Origin: Thiohalocapsa sp.
GTDB taxonomy: Bacteria; Pseudomonadota; Gammaproteobacteria; Chromatiales; Chromatiaceae
Direction of reading: 5' to 3'
Assembly (NCBI GenBank): GCA_021736785.1
Contig: JAIPFF010000046.1
Location: forward strand, 1 to 43,767
DNA: 43,767 nt
Part shown: positions 6,320 through 11,600 of the stretch, piece by piece
Layout: the number at the start of each line of letters is the position of its first letter
How positions within the stretch are numbered: position 1 is the first letter of the stretch
Position numbers and translations under genes: made by a program
Notes under the pieces: model-generated
What the model saw: the letters and a program-made list of their open reading frames with translations, nothing else
Told to the model about the DNA's origin: nothing
Database searches by the model: none

Positions 6320-7494
6320 ATCCATCGACACCGAACCGGCAGATCAGCCCGCATGCGACGGCGGCGGCTGGCTCCGCAAGCGCAAAAGGGCTGCGCATCG
6401 CCATCGTTTCCGATGCGGCTCCCGAGCGCAACGGCGTCGGTGCCTACTATCGCGATCTGGCCGAGCACCTGCGCGCGGCCGGCGCCGTCGTCAACCTGAT
6501 CTCCCCGCGTTTTCGCGCCGGACGCTGGCATGGCGGGCTGGCATTGCCGCTGCCGGGCGATCCGACCCAGAAATTCGTCGTTCCGTCACCGGATCTGGTA
6601 TCACGGCGACTGGATCGCCTGAAACCTGACGCCGTCATCGTGCCCACACCGGGGCCGTTCGGCATGCTCGGCATGTACTTCGCCAAACGCCGCGGGGCGC
6701 GGCTGGTGATCGGTTTCCACACCCATTTCGAGCGCCTGGCCGAACTGAACCGGCATTGGCGCTTGCGCGGCTGGGTTGCGCAAACCTACCTGAACGCCTG
6801 CAACCGCAAATTGTTCGCCGCCGGCGAGCTGGTATTGGCCAATTCAAGCGAGATGGTCGAGGTCGCGCGTGAGATCGGCGCGGATAAGGTCAGCCTGATG
6901 GGCACACCGATCCCACTGCGCTTTCTCGATGTCCCGCCCGAGCCCCTGTCGGCTGATGTCCGCCGCGTTTTGTTCGCCGGACGCCTTGCGCCGGAAAAGA
7001 ATCTCGAGGTGCTCGTCGACGCGGCGCGCGCGGTGCCCGGTATGGATTTCGTCATCGCCGGCGACGGACCGCTGCGGGAGTGGGTCGTCGAACAGGCCGA
7101 GAAGCTGGACAATCTGACCTATATCGGCTGGGTCAAGCGCCCGCAGATCATGCCCCTGATCGACGACCACGACCTGCTGATCCTGCCGTCGACCGTGGAG
7201 TCGTTCGGAACCATCGCATTGGAGGCCATGGCGCGCGGGCGGCTCGTGGTGGTGTCGTCGCAATGCGGCATCCTGAGCTGGGACATGCTCAAGCGCGGCC
7301 TGTTCCAGATACGCGATCAGGAGCCGCTGGCCGACACCCTGCACCGCATCCGCGGGCTCGACCACGCCATCCTCGAACGCAAGGCCGAGATCGCCCGCGA
7401 TGCCGCGTGCGAAATCAATAACCGCAACCTGCAGCATTGGGTCTCCGTGCTGCGGGGCGACAGCGACGCGGTACTCGATGCAAGCGCCCACTGA
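6313..7494 (+). CDS. GT4-family glycosyltransferase (GT-B fold)
   Basis: A retaining glycosyltransferase of about 393 residues. The N-terminal acceptor domain begins with LRIAIVSDAAPERNGVGAYY and contains GFHTHFE near 135. The C-terminal donor domain has R224 and K229 in the FAGRLAPEKN motif, AGDGPLR near 249-255, and the E-x7-E motif E296/E304 (ESFGTIALEAMA). These are hallmarks of GT4 enzymes that use nucleotide sugars, such as PimB- or SqdX-like lipid glycosyltransferases. The precise donor and acceptor cannot be read from the sequence. The start at 6313 overlaps the sulfotransferase stop by 7 bases, and the 3' end overlaps the next start by 17. This tight coupling argues for one glycan or glycolipid pathway. 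Confidence 0.8.
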   Translation: MLNPSTPNRQISPHATAAAGSASAKGLRIAIVSDAAPERNGVGAYYRDLAEHLRAAGAVVNLISPRFRAGRWHGGLALPLPGDPTQKFVVPSPDLVSRRLDRLKPDAVIVPTPGPFGMLGMYFAKRRGARLVIGFHTHFERLAELNRHWRLRGWVAQTYLNACNRKLFAAGELVLANSSEMVEVAREIGADKVSLMGTPIPLRFLDVPPEPLSADVRRVLFAGRLAPEKNLEVLVDAARAVPGMDFVIAGDGPLREWVVEQAEKLDNLTYIGWVKRPQIMPLIDDHDLLILPSTVESFGTIALEAMARGRLVVVSSQCGILSWDMLKRGLFQIRDQEPLADTLHRIRGLDHAILERKAEIARDAACEINNRNLQHWVSVLRGDSDAVLDASAH

Positions 7495-8224
7495 CCTGTC
7501 CGCGGCACCGGCCGCACTGATTTCGATTCACGACCTGATGCCGCGTACCATGCCCGCGGTGCGCCGTACCATCACGCTGCTGGAAAAGACCGTGCGCGGT
7601 CCGGTGACGTTGCTGGTCGTCCCCGGCGCCGGCTGGAACAGCGACGGTGTGCGCGAGCTAAAGGCGCTGCAGCGCGCCGGTTACCGGCTCGCGGGGCACG
7701 GCTGGGCGCATCACACCGACTTCATCGTCCGGCCCTATCACCGCCTGCACAGCCTGCTGATCTCCCGGCGCGTCGCCGAGCACTTGGCGCTCAACGAAGA
7801 CGGCATCATCGGGCTGATCAACCGCTGTTATGACTGGTTCGCGGACAACGGGCTGGACGCGCCGACCCTGTATGTACCGCCGGCCTGGGCGATGGGTGCG
7901 GTGCGAGCGGAGCATCTCGCGGATCACTGTCCGTTCGAGCGTTACGAAACCTTCGCCGGCATCCTGAGCATGCCCCAAGGCCGCCTCCAGGGCACGGCGC
8001 TGCTCGGCTACGAGGCCGACCGAGCGTGGCGCGCCCCGATCATCCGCACCTGGAATGCAGTCAATCGCGCGCGTGTGCGCAACGGCGGCCTGATCCGCAT
8101 CGGCATCCATCCTGACGACAGCGAGCTTCGGCTGCGCGGCGACCTGCTCGCCGACCTGACACGCTACGCCAGGGTCGTCGATTACGACGCCGTCGGCGCC
8201 GCCGCGACAATGCCCGTCGGCTAG
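7478..8224 (+). CDS. DUF2334 polysaccharide deacetylase-like protein
   Basis: A 248-residue protein of the DUF2334 group within the NodB/polysaccharide-deacetylase superfamily. Visible motifs are ISIHDLMP near 16-22 (H18-D19, the place of the metal-binding Asp), AGHGWAHHT (H74, H78, H79) and a late GIHPDD. Such residues usually hold a divalent metal that hydrolyses N- or O-acetyl groups. There is no signal peptide, so it probably acts in the cytoplasm. The ATG at 7478 lies inside the end of the glycosyltransferase gene. The final codons meet the convergent phosphatase gene: its TAG stop shares bases with the stop of the opposite gene. A role trimming the sugar added by its neighbour is an inference. 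Confidence 0.7.
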   Translation: MQAPTDLSAAPAALISIHDLMPRTMPAVRRTITLLEKTVRGPVTLLVVPGAGWNSDGVRELKALQRAGYRLAGHGWAHHTDFIVRPYHRLHSLLISRRVAEHLALNEDGIIGLINRCYDWFADNGLDAPTLYVPPAWAMGAVRAEHLADHCPFERYETFAGILSMPQGRLQGTALLGYEADRAWRAPIIRTWNAVNRARVRNGGLIRIGIHPDDSELRLRGDLLADLTRYARVVDYDAVGAAATMPVG

Positions 8225-8715
8225 AAGTGCCGCGACCGGATCTCCTCGAGCAGCCCTTTCGCCGCCTCCTCCACCATATCGAAGACGGCTTCGAACCCGC
8301 CGGCGCCGCCGTAGTAGGGATCGGGCACCTCGCGAATTTCCATATGCGGGGCGAACTCCATGAACAGGCGAATGCGTGATGCCAACTCCGGCTGCTGGCG
8401 GCAAAGCTCGGACATCGCCCGGTAATTGTCCTGATCCATGGCCAGTACATAGTCGAAATAGCCGAAGTCCCGCGCCTCGACACGTCGCGCCCGCAAATGG
8501 GACAGCGCGATACCGCGACTCATCGCCGTCTCCTGGGCGCGGCGGTCCGGGGGCTCGCCGACGTGGTAGGCATGGGTGCCGGCCGAATCGATCTCGAAAC
8601 GCTCGCTCAGCCCTTGGTCGTCGATCAGTTTTCGGAACACCCCTTCCGCCGTCGGCGATCGGCAAATATTGCCCATGCAGACGAAAAGGATTTTGACAGG
8701 TTTCGGATCGCTCAT
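8221..8715 (-). CDS. Low-molecular-weight protein tyrosine phosphatase
   Basis: A cytoplasmic phosphatase of 164 residues, close to the family norm. The catalytic loop C-x5-R is C13 to R19 (CMGNICRS) and the general acid is D132 in DPYYGG. The DAGTHA-like segment SAGTHAYHVG and the MDQDN motif are also typical. In bacteria these enzymes often act on tyrosine kinases of exopolysaccharide systems, or act more broadly. In related genomes the gene commonly lies next to kdsB and rne, which fits here. A GAGG ribosome-binding site precedes the ATG. Convergent with the DUF2334 gene, with overlapping stops. Confidence 0.92.
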   Translation of the reverse strand: MSDPKPVKILFVCMGNICRSPTAEGVFRKLIDDQGLSERFEIDSAGTHAYHVGEPPDRRAQETAMSRGIALSHLRARRVEARDFGYFDYVLAMDQDNYRAMSELCRQQPELASRIRLFMEFAPHMEIREVPDPYYGGAGGFEAVFDMVEEAAKGLLEEIRSRHF

Positions 8716-8981
8716 CGCTGCCTCGACATGAAGTGAATACCGTTGGGAACGTCCCGGCAGTTTAAACCAGAATCGTGCGGCGGCCGGCGCGAGCTCCTTT
8801 CGACACTCGGAAAATCAAACCCTTATCAGTCGCCCATCGGTTCCGCCGCCGTCGTTGACGACGACCGGACACGGACCTTCGGGCCGAGCGGCAAGCGAGT
8901 CCGGGCCGGCGCCGCTGTTCTGCGCACCGAGCGGCTATCCAGCTAGCGAGTCGGGCCGCGGCCGGGCCGTCGCGGTTGCCG

Positions 8982-9431
8982 TCAGCGCTCGAAGGGCAGC
9001 ACGCGTTCCTGCATGCGCCGATGCAGACGCTGGCGCTCCAATGCGCGTCGGTGCGTTTCGAACATGTCCCGTCGCGGCACGGCCGTCGAAGGCCGCGGCG
9101 TCGGGCTCGGCGACGGGTCTGCCTGACGCGGCAGCTCGCTGCGCCGGCGCGCACTGTCGAGCTCGCGCTGGCGGCGCTGCTGCAGCGCCCGCAGATCGTC
9201 GCGCTGCCCGCGCTCGATGGCTTCCAGACGGCGCTCTTCTTGAAGCCCCAGCGGCTCGACGCGCTCACGGTATGAGCGCTGGTCCCGCTCGAGCTGGAGC
9301 CAGTCGCTTGCCTCGCGGCGGGTCTCGGGCTGCGCCAGTGCATCGGCGCCGGCCAGGGCGCAGACAGCAACGGCTGCCGCCGCTGCCAACCTTCTCGCCG
9401 GCCCGGTCCGGGAACGTTCGACAGGGCGCAC
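8982..9431 (-). CDS. Small exported, arginine/glutamine-rich coiled-coil protein of unknown function
   Basis: No family is recognised. From a GTG at 9431 the protein would have 149 residues. It has a positively charged n-region (RSRTGPARR), a hydrophobic stretch AAAAAVAVCALAGA and a likely signal-peptidase site near ALAQ. The rest is a heptad-like segment rich in Arg, Glu, Gln and Leu, predicted as coiled coil, with a short Pro/Ser linker. The frame stays open to an ATG at 9566 with a GCAGG box upstream. That start would put about 60 residues before the hydrophobic segment, so the GTG is preferred. The gene faces away from the small-RNA promoter at 9560-9576. The product is probably periplasmic. 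Confidence 0.5.
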   Translation of the reverse strand: MRPVERSRTGPARRLAAAAAVAVCALAGADALAQPETRREASDWLQLERDQRSYRERVEPLGLQEERRLEAIERGQRDDLRALQQRRQRELDSARRRSELPRQADPSPSPTPRPSTAVPRRDMFETHRRALERQRLHRRMQERVLPFER

Positions 9432-9443
9432 CCGATCAGTGCA
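9427..9443. promoter_or_regulatory. NtrC-like palindrome upstream of the small-RNA promoter
   Basis: The 17 bases fit the enterobacterial NtrC consensus TGCACC-N5-GGTGCA at 10 of 12 fixed positions (CGCACC, five bases, AGTGCA). The centre lies about 150 bp upstream of the predicted start of the small RNA, within the range for enhancers of sigma-54 promoters. It overlaps the proposed start of the secreted protein gene. Assignment is by motif only. Confidence 0.4.
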
Positions 9444-9559
9444 ATCGTGCGCCGCGGCCGCTTTACGACGATGCGCCTTTGCCCGCACCGCTGGAGCAGG
9501 TCCGGCATCAATCGCCCACGAAGACGCTCGGTGAGAGGCGCGAAAGGCAGCGAACAACA

Positions 9560-9576
9560 TTGGCATCAAACCTGCT
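9560..9576 (+). promoter_or_regulatory. Sigma-54 (RpoN) -24/-12 promoter for a small RNA
   Basis: TTGGCAT, five bases, then CTGCT matches the consensus TTGGCAC-N5-TTGCT with exact spacing. The invariant GG is at 9562-9563 and GC at 9574-9575, and there are two mismatches. Transcription would begin near 9587, at the foot of the first hairpin of the small RNA. No plus-strand protein gene follows before the terminator at 9644-9670. Confidence 0.6.
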
Positions 9577-9586
9577 TATACGATAG

Positions 9587-9670
9587 AGAGGCGGAAAGTC
9601 CCTCTCTGCCATTTCCGTCCTCTGACCTCCTCAGTGGTGAATCGCCCCGCCTCCCGGCGGGGCTTTTTTT
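9587..9670 (+). ncRNA. Candidate sigma-54-dependent small RNA with an anti-Shine-Dalgarno loop
   Basis: The predicted transcript is about 84 nt and not recognised as a known RNA family. Three elements are seen directly. A 7-bp hairpin is formed by 9585-9591 and 9601-9607, with a 9-base loop containing CGGAAAG. A small hairpin CTGA/TCAG at 9622-9634 exposes the loop CCTCC. The third is an intrinsic terminator ending in T7. The C/U-rich stretch between hairpins (TTTCCGTCCTC) should be single-stranded. An exposed CCUCC is complementary to Shine-Dalgarno sequences, a feature of several bacterial regulatory RNAs with C-rich loops. There is no open frame of note in it. The upstream sigma-54 element and NtrC-like site suggest nitrogen-linked expression (inference). 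Confidence 0.6.
9644..9670 (+). terminator. Strong intrinsic terminator, plus strand
   Basis: A perfect 8-bp GC stem (GCCCCGCC at 9644-9651 with GGCGGGGC at 9656-9663) closes a TCCC loop and is followed directly by seven Ts (9664-9670). The T-tract is on the plus strand, so it ends rightward transcription. The only rightward transcript it can serve is the proposed small RNA, because the nearest upstream plus-strand gene ends at 8224. Confidence 0.9.
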
Positions 9671-9686
9671 GTCCGGGACCAGCACA

Positions 9687-10085
9687 TCAAGCCTCGATCT
9701 CGACCGTGAAGCTCGGCGCGTTCACGATGGATTTCTTCACCGCGCAGAGGTCCATGGAGCGCACGATGCCGTCGCGGTATCGCTCCGGAAAGCCCTCCGG
9801 AAGACGCAATCGCAGCGTCGCCGAGGCGCCCGTCCCATCCTTCGCGCCGGGCTCCCATGACAGGGATAAGCCAAGGCCCTGCGTCGGAATGTCACGAGTT
9901 TGACAAAAATTCAGTGCATAGATGCCGCTGCAAGCGGCGATCGAGGCCAAAAATAGATCGAATGGTGCGGGTGCCGAGCCCTCGCCGCCGTTTTTCTCGG
10001 ATTGATCGGTTGCGACCCTGAAGCCGCCGACCTGCACGTCCACGCGCTTGCCGCCGGGAAATGTCACTGCCAGGTGGTCAGACAC
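9687..10085 (-). CDS. OsmC/Ohr-family protein
   Basis: A 132-residue OsmC-like protein. The family reduces organic hydroperoxides through two cysteines, or has related redox roles. C52 (in ASIAACSG) and C114 (in SMDLCAVKKS) occupy the expected positions. The strand-rich N terminus (FPGGKRVDVQVGGF, then GGEGSAPAPFDLF) fits the OsmC fold. The start is taken as GTG 10085 because a GGGGA box lies about 8 bases upstream; the frame stays open further upstream without family similarity. It faces the next gene divergently, with 205 bases between. It is cytoplasmic. It may belong to the YhfA-like branch rather than Ohr, which cannot be settled here. Confidence 0.82.
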   Translation of the reverse strand: MSDHLAVTFPGGKRVDVQVGGFRVATDQSEKNGGEGSAPAPFDLFLASIAACSGIYALNFCQTRDIPTQGLGLSLSWEPGAKDGTGASATLRLRLPEGFPERYRDGIVRSMDLCAVKKSIVNAPSFTVEIEA

Positions 10086-10146
10086 GAATGAGTCCCCATT
10101 TATCGGATTTTCGAATACTCTGTATGAGATCGCCCCGCGGCGGTTG

Positions 10147-10160
10147 CTCCGGCGCCGGAG
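10147..10160. promoter_or_regulatory. Perfect 14-bp palindrome between divergent genes
   Basis: CTCCGGCGCCGGAG is a perfect palindrome near the middle of the 205-base gap between the OsmC-family gene (minus) and the 93-residue unknown (plus). It could be an operator for a dimeric regulator, but GC-rich DNA makes such palindromes fairly easily. Confidence 0.25.
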
Positions 10161-10290
10161 CGCCCGCGCACAGGGGACACACAACATCGCACACAATGGG
10201 CCGCGGTTTCGAGCATCGCGGTCCCGTCACGCCGCCGGCACGCTAGCGCGTCGAGCGAAACGTGCCCGCGCCACAAACAGGGAGAGCAAC

Positions 10291-10572
10291 ATGAATGATT
10301 CCGAGCCTTTTATCGCGCGTCTGCGTCAACTGATCGGCCGAGATTGCCGCTACTACGGACGGCCTTGCCGGATCGTCGAGATTCTGTCGGCGGAAGGCCG
10401 GATCGTGCTGGAGGGACGGGAAGCGATGCCGCCGATTCAAATCGATCAGTACGGGCAGGCGGCCTTCCGGGGAAACGAGCACATCGAGGTGCCGATGTTC
10501 AATCAGAACAGCGAGTTCTCGGAAGATCTGCAGCATCTGCTCGACGGGCTGTCCGCCGGACGCAATGGGTAG
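10291..10572 (+). CDS. Small conserved-looking protein of unknown function, 93 residues
   Basis: Not recognised. The ATG at 10291 follows a good ribosome-binding site (GGAGAG, about 6 bases upstream). The sequence looks cytoplasmic and folded. Residues 9-48 (LRQLIGRDCRYYGRPCRIVE and the following EGRIVLEG) suggest an SH3-like or small beta-barrel domain. A polar acidic tail contains FNQNSEFSEDLQHLL. C18 and C25 form a C-x6-C pair. There is no signal peptide or membrane segment. It is convergent with kdsB and divergent from the OsmC-family gene, with its own gap, so it is probably a single-gene transcript. Coding evidence is the ribosome-binding site and balanced composition. Confidence 0.7.
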   Translation: MNDSEPFIARLRQLIGRDCRYYGRPCRIVEILSAEGRIVLEGREAMPPIQIDQYGQAAFRGNEHIEVPMFNQNSEFSEDLQHLLDGLSAGRNG

Positions 10573-10606
10573 CCCGGCCGCGGGCTTCGCAACACCGACG
10601 GCCGGG
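10573..10606. terminator. Inverted repeat between two convergent genes
   Basis: CCCGGCCG at 10573-10580 pairs perfectly with CGGCCGGG at 10599-10606 across an 18-base loop. It starts directly after the stop of the 93-residue gene and precedes the 3' end of kdsB. It may act as a bidirectional terminator, although no T-tract follows on either side. Confidence 0.35.
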
Positions 10607-10647
10607 ATAGATAAGAGCGGCAAGGCACGGCGGCGCGGCGCAGGCGA

Positions 10648-11415
10648 TCAGGAACGGCCGAGCAGCTCGACCACCCGCTTGACGTCGTCGGCGGTATCGA
10701 TACCCGGCCCCGGCTCCTCGCCGGCGATCGCCACATGGATGCGCTCGCCGTGCCAGAGCACACGCAGTTGCTCCAGGGACTCGGCGATCTCCAGCGGCGA
10801 AGGATCCCAATCGACGAAGCGGCGCAAGAAGGCCGCGCGATAGGCGTACAGGCCGATGTGACGCAGGAACGGCACGCCTGCAGGCAGGTGCGAGCGCTTG
10901 CCCAGAAATTCGTCCCGGTGCCACGGCATCGGTGCCCGCGAGAAGTACAGCGCGCAACCCTGCGCGTCGACCACCACCTTGACCACGTGCGCATCGAACA
11001 AGTGCGCCGCGTCGGTGATCGGGAAGGCCAGGGTCGCCATGCCGATATCGGGGTGCCTGCCAAGGTCGCCCGCCACTTGATCGATCAGCGCCGGCGGCAT
11101 GCAGGGCTCGTCGCCCTGGAGATTGACCACGATCACCGATGCGTCCCAACCGCGCCGATCGATGACTTCCGCCACACGGTCCGAACCGCTGTGATGATGC
11201 CCCGCGGTCAGCACCACGTCGGCGCCGGCCGCCTCGCAAACATCGACCACGCGCGCATCGTCGGTCGCGACCACGACTTCCGCCGCGCCGCTCGCCCGCG
11301 CCTGCTCCCAAACCCGCAAGATCAGCGGCTTGCCGGCGATATCGACCAACGGTTTGCCCGGCAGCCGGCTGGCCCCGTAGCGCGCCGGAATGACGACATT
11401 GAAGGACGCGCTCAA
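10648..11415 (-). CDS. kdsB: 3-deoxy-manno-octulosonate cytidylyltransferase
   Basis: CMP-Kdo synthetase activates Kdo with CTP for the inner core of lipopolysaccharide, in the cytoplasm. It has 255 residues against 248 in E. coli. The N-terminal nucleotide-binding motif [17 protein letters not shown], the NLQGDEP metal/nucleotide motif, [38 protein letters not shown] and GIDTADD all match KdsB. The best start is TTG at 11415, overlapping the TGA stop of the upstream ycaR gene (TTGA), which suggests translational coupling. It is the last gene of the minus-strand envelope operon that begins at exbB. Confidence 0.95.
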
Positions 11416-11600
11416 GGGGCCGCGACCTCTTCCTCGGCGTCGAGGGTTCTGGCCTCTTCTTCGAGCATCACCGGCATGGAATCGCGAATCGGATAGGCCA
11501 GACGGTCGATGCGGCAGATCAGTTCTTCCGCCGTCTTGTCGTAGACGAGCTCGCCCTTGCAAACGGGGCAGCGCAGAATTTCAAGCAGTCTCTTGTCCAT
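11412..11600 (-). CDS. ycaR: Trm112/YcaR-family small zinc-ribbon-like protein
   Basis: A 62-residue protein homologous to YcaR, which sits between lpxK and kdsB in many gammaproteobacteria. [18 protein letters not shown] is nearly the textbook N terminus, followed by [15 protein letters not shown] and VMLEEEAR. C11 and C14 form a CPVC knuckle and one more cysteine lies in ELICR, so the zinc site may be incomplete. The ATG at 11600 has an AGAGG box 8 bases upstream; a GTG three codons earlier is less likely. Family members often assist methyltransferases, but the bacterial role is unclear. Confidence 0.9.

Follow-up and report, generated by a model that had tools for sequence, protein, structure and literature searches.

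A candidate small RNA gene of Chromatiaceae with a sigma-54 promoter, an NtrC-type enhancer site and an anti-Shine-Dalgarno core

The locus and its relatives within the family

The window considered in this study is the whole stretch of 43,767 nucleotides from the purple sulfur bacterium Thiohalocapsa sp. (Chromatiaceae), in which a small RNA gene with a promoter and a terminator of its own is predicted on the plus strand, opposite to both of its neighbours, which are encoded on the minus strand (Table 1). A 195-aa open reading frame on the minus strand (8982-9569) showed no Pfam match and, by eye, a signal-peptide-like stretch; its true start is uncertain because the NtrC site and the sigma-54 element both overlap with its 5' part. 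The surroundings of the gene are partly kept among the homologous loci, and the flanking genes vary. In 40 named loci, of which 32 extend 1.5 kb downstream and 31 extend 1.5 kb upstream, KdsB was found within 2.2 kb downstream of the small RNA in 27, and in 21 the phosphatase lay upstream at no more than 3.1 kb.

Table 1. Positions of the predicted small RNA, its control elements and the flanking genes in the window
Feature	Position	Strand	Remark
DUF2334 protein	7400..8224	+	nearest upstream plus-strand gene; ends 1.36 kb from the small RNA
LMW phosphotyrosine phosphatase (PF01451)	8221..8715	-	flanking; Pfam match
Putative NtrC-type enhancer CGCACCCGATCAGTGCA	9427..9443	+	10/12 of consensus; 134 bp upstream of the sigma-54 TGGC
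Sigma-54 (RpoN) -24/-12 element TTGGCATCAAACCTGCT (9560-9576), as TGGCATCAAACCTGCT	9561..9576	+	GG-N10-GC
Small RNA, about 84 nt	9587..9670	+	start predicted from the -12 element; end is the T-run
5' hairpin AGAGGCGGAAA...UUUCCG-U-CCUCU	9587..9623	+	CU-rich loop; fold prediction
Conserved core ACCUCCUCAGUGGUGA	9625..9640	+	predicted mRNA-pairing (seed) region; conservation, unpaired probability
Intrinsic terminator	9644..9670	+	8-bp GC stem (9644-9663), 4-base loop, T7
OsmC-like protein (PF02566)	9687..10196	-	flanking, convergent with the small RNA; start uncertain
Cytidylyltransferase, KdsB-like (PF02348)	10648..11562	-	flanking; ORF longer than gene

A scan for the exact pattern ACCTCCTCAGTGGTGA-N1-7-CCCC over 84,980 species, each represented by a single genome, gave 44 stretches, 40 of them from Chromatiaceae or gammaproteobacteria; the other four (L024, L033, L052 and L059) came from unrelated organisms with the surrounding features absent, and were dropped. 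Because such a scan requires the exact core, a covariance model was built on 28 transcripts, with the promoter left out, and all 210 genomes of the family were searched with it, the cut-off for calling the small RNA being 46 bits. At 46.4 bits or above we obtained 56 copies, which are related by descent, so that counts over them are not independent events; they lie in 55 of the 210 Chromatiaceae genomes, the next score was 35.6 bits, and the small RNA of the own Thiohalocapsa genome scored 94.3 bits. At an E value of 0.001 the same search reported 112 of the 210 genomes, with scores split into two groups, and in a sample of the class 118 of 369 genomes passed this E value. Above 34.0 bits the class sample held the own genome only, and the lower group is therefore read as mostly GC-rich terminators. 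The training sequences were chosen for the exact core, as a result of which strongly diverged members may be missed. From these comparisons of sequence, we regard the small RNA gene as real and as restricted to the family Chromatiaceae.

Several variants were also noticed. The copy in L133 (genome G141) was out of reach of the exact-pattern scan, its core being ACTTCC. Genome G219 harbors a diverged second copy with an altered core (L143, 2871-2956; 46.4 bits), which is equipped with a sigma-54 element of its own and, at -133, an NtrC-like site (9/12). Two weak matches adjoin the same phosphatase gene, namely L145 (3070-3151; 35.2 bits), where the sigma-54 element scores 12/12, and L149 (3111-3193; 33.0 bits), where a near match to the element has GT in place of GC; both fall below the cut-off and are probably diverged members of the small RNA family. 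A 33-bit match in two related genomes (L146, 1251-1334, and L148, 1164-1247, both on the minus strand) has the core TCCTCC-TTTGGTGGTAA and a TTGACA-like sequence upstream in place of the sigma-54 element, and is perhaps another small RNA.

Concerning the organisms, a photosynthetic reaction centre was found in 50 of the 55 RNA-bearing genomes compared with 27 of the 155 other family genomes, counts that are not corrected for kinship, and 27 of the 77 reaction-centre-bearing genomes are without the small RNA at 46 bits. The culturable purple sulfur bacterium Thiocapsa roseopersicina is among the carriers of the RNA (locus L047). The gene nifH was detected in 45 of 55 RNA-bearing and 47 of 155 other family genomes, and ten RNA-bearing genomes have no nifH over the cut-off. 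Nitrogen fixation as the common factor was considered and set aside, as among reaction-centre-bearing genomes nifH occurs in 43 of 50 with the RNA and 20 of 27 without it (p = 0.23). NtrC was found over the cut-off in 193 of the 210 family genomes.

Sigma-54 element and NtrC-type site

With reference to the promoter, the RNA is predicted to start 12 bases from the -12 GC, measured from its C. During this analysis a strict GG-N10-GC element scoring at least 9 of 12 was required, and for the control an identical search window was applied to randomly chosen positions in the loci of the copies. Such an element occupies the expected position in 55 of the 56 copies compared with 329 of 10,921 control positions (3.0%). 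All 56 copies have the element, which in one of them an insert has displaced, and the model by which the copies were found contained no promoter. A sequence-only reading of this DNA had proposed a -24/-12 element with correct spacing, which agrees with these data, GG and GC lying 10 bases apart. The displaced element belongs to Thiocystis minor (L022, equal to L129), where it reads TGGCATTTATAATGCA and scores 10/12; 122 bases separate its -12 C from the RNA, compared with about 12 in the others. In this species (L022, 3950-4180, minus strand) a stretch of about 110 bases with a CRISPR-repeat-like palindrome at its end lies between promoter and RNA gene. A CRISPR array at this gene was considered and rejected, there being a single repeat-like piece and no array found nearby.

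Upstream of the promoter, we counted dyads with no motif presupposed, taking all 4-mer pairs with gaps of 0-16 in the 56 copies and in 216 control stretches. The commonest was GCAC-N7-GTGC, that is, the NtrC site, which occurs in 48 of 56 copies and in 1 of 216 controls. Sites were then scored against TGCACC-N5-GGTGCA, which we take to be the NtrC consensus. A score of at least 9/12 within 300 bp was reached in 51 of the 56 copies and 1207 of 8369 control stretches, so that controls often match at this looser score; at least 10/12 was reached in 42 copies compared with 84 controls, and at least 11/12 in 15 compared with none. In the 51 copies the best site starts 121-140 bp before the TGGC in 34, 156-160 bp in seven, 185-243 bp in nine and 101 bp in one. 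Seven copies (L120, L126, L128, L134, L136, L138 and L142) have a second site of at least 9/12 at a distance of 27-34 bp. Five copies score below 9/12, four of them with an 8/12 site at -129 to -132 and that of G063 with none.

The stricter form YGCACY-N5-RGTGCA was scanned over the 5.2-Mb own genome, and the 400 bp to either side of every match were searched for the strict sigma-54 element. The motif occurs at four places, three of which are followed by a sigma-54 element within 78-134 bp that scores 10 or 11 of 12, the small RNA's being the one at 134 bp. At one of the others (contig C50, near 21207) the element lies at 125 bp and is followed by the genes of a TorF-family porin and a P-II protein, the latter matched at an E value of 2.1e-54, yet scoring too low for the equivalog cut-off of either P-II model. 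Since the genes of P-II proteins belong to the classical targets of NtrC, we consider the motif to be that of NtrC in this Thiohalocapsa. At the third place (contig C25, near 68942, minus strand) an 11/12 element at 78 bp is followed by an open reading frame of about 376 aa, for which no Pfam family was matched and which is possibly a nitrogen-regulated gene. The fourth lies inside an open reading frame that is cytochrome-b-like by eye, with no sigma-54 element within 400 bp. Since three of the four places have a sigma-54 element, NtrC control is favoured, and from the sequence of these sites the control of the small RNA by NtrC and sigma-54 is very probable. The sequence-only reading had also pointed to an NtrC-like palindrome upstream, which is present at 10/12, and to nitrogen control, which gains support from the conserved dyad, detected with no motif presupposed, and from the same layout at the TorF porin/P-II pair.

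Fold, open core and target searches

The predicted fold of 9587-9671 has an energy of -36.3 kcal/mol, a value reached by 1 of 200 shuffles, with z = -3.55, and over 50 distinct homologues the mean z is -3.15, with 43 at -2 or lower. For the 5' part of the RNA alone the mean z is -1.86, with 24 of 50 at -2 or lower, and the 3' arm of the 5' hairpin is paired in 45 of 50. The core is mostly unpaired, with a mean unpaired probability of 0.70 over CCUCCUCAGU and 0.80 over UCCUCAG. Of 50 distinct sequences from the strong group, 49 contain CTCAGTGGTGA and 44 contain ACCTCCT, which is single in those 44 transcripts and double in none. The shorter CCTCC occurs once in 36 transcripts and two or three times in nine, one of these having three. 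The heptamer ACCUCCU presumably corresponds to the anti-Shine-Dalgarno of the 16S rRNA 3' end.

In the minimum-energy folds of the 50 homologues the middle hairpin takes an ACC/GGU form in 37 and a CUGA-CCUCC-UCAG form in seven. Because the folds differ there, the CCUCC region is, as modelled, more aptly described as an open core than as a fixed loop, and the middle hairpin is weak. The three hairpins of the sequence-only reading, one with a CCTCC loop, are thus upheld as to a strong fold, and not as to the loop, the middle hairpin being weak and CCUCC mostly unpaired. A model-fitted alignment of 55 distinct rows, five of which are weak matches or the second copy, was used for the helices. The terminator helix is paired in 100% of them with both-side changes at 4 of 7 pairs, and the short ACC/GGU helix, which varies on one side only, shows pairing in 98.1% of cells. 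The strong terminator that had been proposed is present, with 8 G-C pairs and T7, and its helix covaries. Terminator-like sites in 8000-11500 number one, compared with 2.1 expected from shuffles, which is chance level, so the terminator takes its weight from conservation. Among relatives the -24/-12 element, the terminator and the transcript are kept, and the middle hairpin weakly so. A long U tail on an intrinsic terminator, a trait of Hfq-type base-pairing RNAs, is present and conserved. ATG occurs anywhere in 15 of 50 distinct sequences only, hence we see no conserved open frame in the small RNA.

Regarding targets, no complement to the core of at least 16/19 was found in the own genome besides the gene itself. 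The pattern ACTGAGGAG-N3-12-ATG gave 37 sites in ten genomes of the genus; among 30 of the 37, ppa (inorganic pyrophosphatase) recurs in three genomes and acetate kinase in two, and apart from these no protein recurs. We examined ppa in the best 30 of 179 genomes with a match, 21 RNA-bearing and nine without the RNA. As a conserved target it was rejected, at least 11 contiguous pairs being formed in 3 of these 21 RNA-bearing genomes; a 10-pair form appeared in two more of the 21 and in one of the nine. Perfect 11-base sites of the form CCACTGAGGAG-N2-12-ATG were present in 26 of 55 RNA-bearing and 56 of 155 other genomes, a small difference, and in one of the 26 the site is the gene's own antisense strand.

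Proposed function and relation to known small RNAs

We consider it probable that the locus encodes a trans-acting regulatory RNA of about 84 nt which belongs to the nitrogen-limitation regulon of Chromatiaceae, is activated by NtrC and sigma-54, and represses mRNAs by pairing. Its trans-acting nature is our inference from the anatomy of the locus, and pairing at ribosome-binding sites is the likely mechanism. As the conserved sequences suggest, nitrogen limitation would lead NtrC-phosphate to bind the enhancer about 130 bp upstream and to activate sigma-54 RNA polymerase at the -24/-12 element, and a short RNA would be made, ending at its own conserved U-tailed terminator. The open ACCUCCUCAGUGGUGA core would then pair with the ribosome-binding site of a few mRNAs and lead to their repression, probably with the assistance of Hfq, and the conserved CAGUGGUGA extension of the core should confer selectivity for targets. 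It is quite unlikely that the RNA instead acts in nitrogen starvation as a mimic of the 16S 3' end that, through its anti-Shine-Dalgarno heptamer, competes for strong Shine-Dalgarno sequences in general, in which case translation of strongly initiated mRNAs would be lowered cell-wide, instead of that of a few targets.

Other explanations of the same data differ in what the RNA binds, in its activator, or in whether it is a gene at all. The RNA may bind a protein or another small RNA as a sponge, with the CU-rich core as bait and no mRNA pairing; the target searches, which yielded no conserved target, agree with this, RNA-binding proteins could bind CU-rich loops, and nine of the 50 transcripts carry CCTCC more than once. 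However, a highly conserved and mostly unpaired core of 16 nt over the anti-Shine-Dalgarno exceeds the usual length of a protein motif, and ACCTCCT is never doubled, which makes a sponge unlikely. We hold it very improbable that the RNA is a sigma-54 small RNA under another enhancer-binding protein, such as NifA or a CbrB-like carbon regulator. It is generally known that many activators use sigma-54 promoters, and a NifA-type TGT-N10-ACA was observed upstream of 9 of 56 copies compared with 7 of 216 controls; against this stand the dyad in 48 of 56 copies compared with 1 of 216, the CbrB-type pattern in none of 56, the ten RNA-bearing genomes without nifH over the cut-off, and the observation that nifH does not track the RNA in reaction-centre-bearing genomes.

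We find it hardly credible that there is no separate gene and that the features belong to a longer transcript, as its 3' or 5' portion, or represent a stray terminator. A stray terminator would fit the chance-level count of such sites in the region. A longer transcript is opposed by the absence of a near plus-strand gene upstream, a point made in the sequence-only reading that holds, the closest, that of the DUF2334 protein, ending 1.36 kb off, and promoter and transcript are kept together in 56 copies with near-fixed spacing (one insert), while the flanking genes vary.

If regulation by an NtrC-activated, mRNA-pairing RNA is true, a post-transcriptional arm would be added to the nitrogen control of phototrophic, largely nitrogen-fixing purple sulfur bacteria. 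The system would also offer a clean case for comparison, in which 55 genomes share a single promoter architecture, a single core and a known starvation signal, and there are RNA-less relatives, a promoter that is naturally interrupted and a second copy that has diverged.

In comparison with known families, an Rfam scan of the whole window found no family at gathering score, and a permissive scan of 9540-9690 (151 bases) gave 27 matches up to an E value of 10, all below gathering. The earlier statement that the RNA matches none that is recognised agrees with this outcome; of the covariance searches it had suggested, the one against Rfam thus gave no family, and the one with a new model gave the 55 of 210 genomes reported above. 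The best sub-threshold match was the Betaproteobacteria toxic small RNA (RF02278; 29.3 against 50 bits, E 0.00017), and anti-hemB (RF02837; 23.6 against 49.5 bits, E 0.00077) and SorY (RF02651; 19.4 against 111 bits, E 0.041) were also found below threshold. Like the present RNA, these three have a CU-rich stretch followed by a GC-rich U-tailed terminator. CrcZ, Qrr and GlmY/GlmZ are sigma-54-dependent small RNAs of gammaproteobacteria with other activators and sequences, and they are absent from the matches of both the full-window and the permissive scan. In the open-licence literature, we found no paper on such small RNAs in purple sulfur bacteria or Chromatiaceae.

According to excerpts of the published accounts, NrsZ of Pseudomonas aeruginosa is induced by NtrB/C and RpoN on nitrogen limitation (PMC9308961, PMC8395346), and it is a processed RNA of about 226 nt that adjoins ntrC and has the motif ACAGGCAG (PMC9308961). 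As far as these excerpts describe NrsZ, the likeness lies in the control by NtrC and RpoN under nitrogen limitation, which for the Thiohalocapsa RNA is a prediction; the latter differs in its length of about 84 nt, in the motif ACAGGCAG, found in none of 50 distinct homologues, and in its place, since NrsZ stands beside ntrC and here the small RNA lies on contig C92 with the best ntrC match on C23. In the excerpted text on NfeR1, the alpha-r14 RNA of Sinorhizobium, there is an unpaired anti-Shine-Dalgarno core and three hairpins each with CCUCCUCCC, and the RNA is repressed by NtrC and tied to NtrBC, with a promoter that is described without a sigma-54 signature (PMC10746234). On that description the two share an anti-Shine-Dalgarno core in unpaired regions and the tie to NtrBC, and differ in that alpha-r14 has three CCUCCUCCC hairpins and the window has one ACCUCCU core; the Rfam model ar14 scores 16.2 bits on the small RNA, against a gathering score of 58.8. 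NcS25 of Burkholderia cenocepacia, again from an excerpt, is an 84-nt RNA with a single-stranded seed containing a 7-nt complement to Shine-Dalgarno, is constitutively expressed and is described with no sigma-54 motif upstream (PMC10117139). In size and type of seed it resembles the present RNA, whereas sigma-54 control sets the two apart on this account, and the Rfam model ncS025 gives 12.5 of 46 bits. The Thiohalocapsa RNA would thus unite features known apart, namely the NtrC/sigma-54 activation of NrsZ and the anti-Shine-Dalgarno core of alpha-r14.
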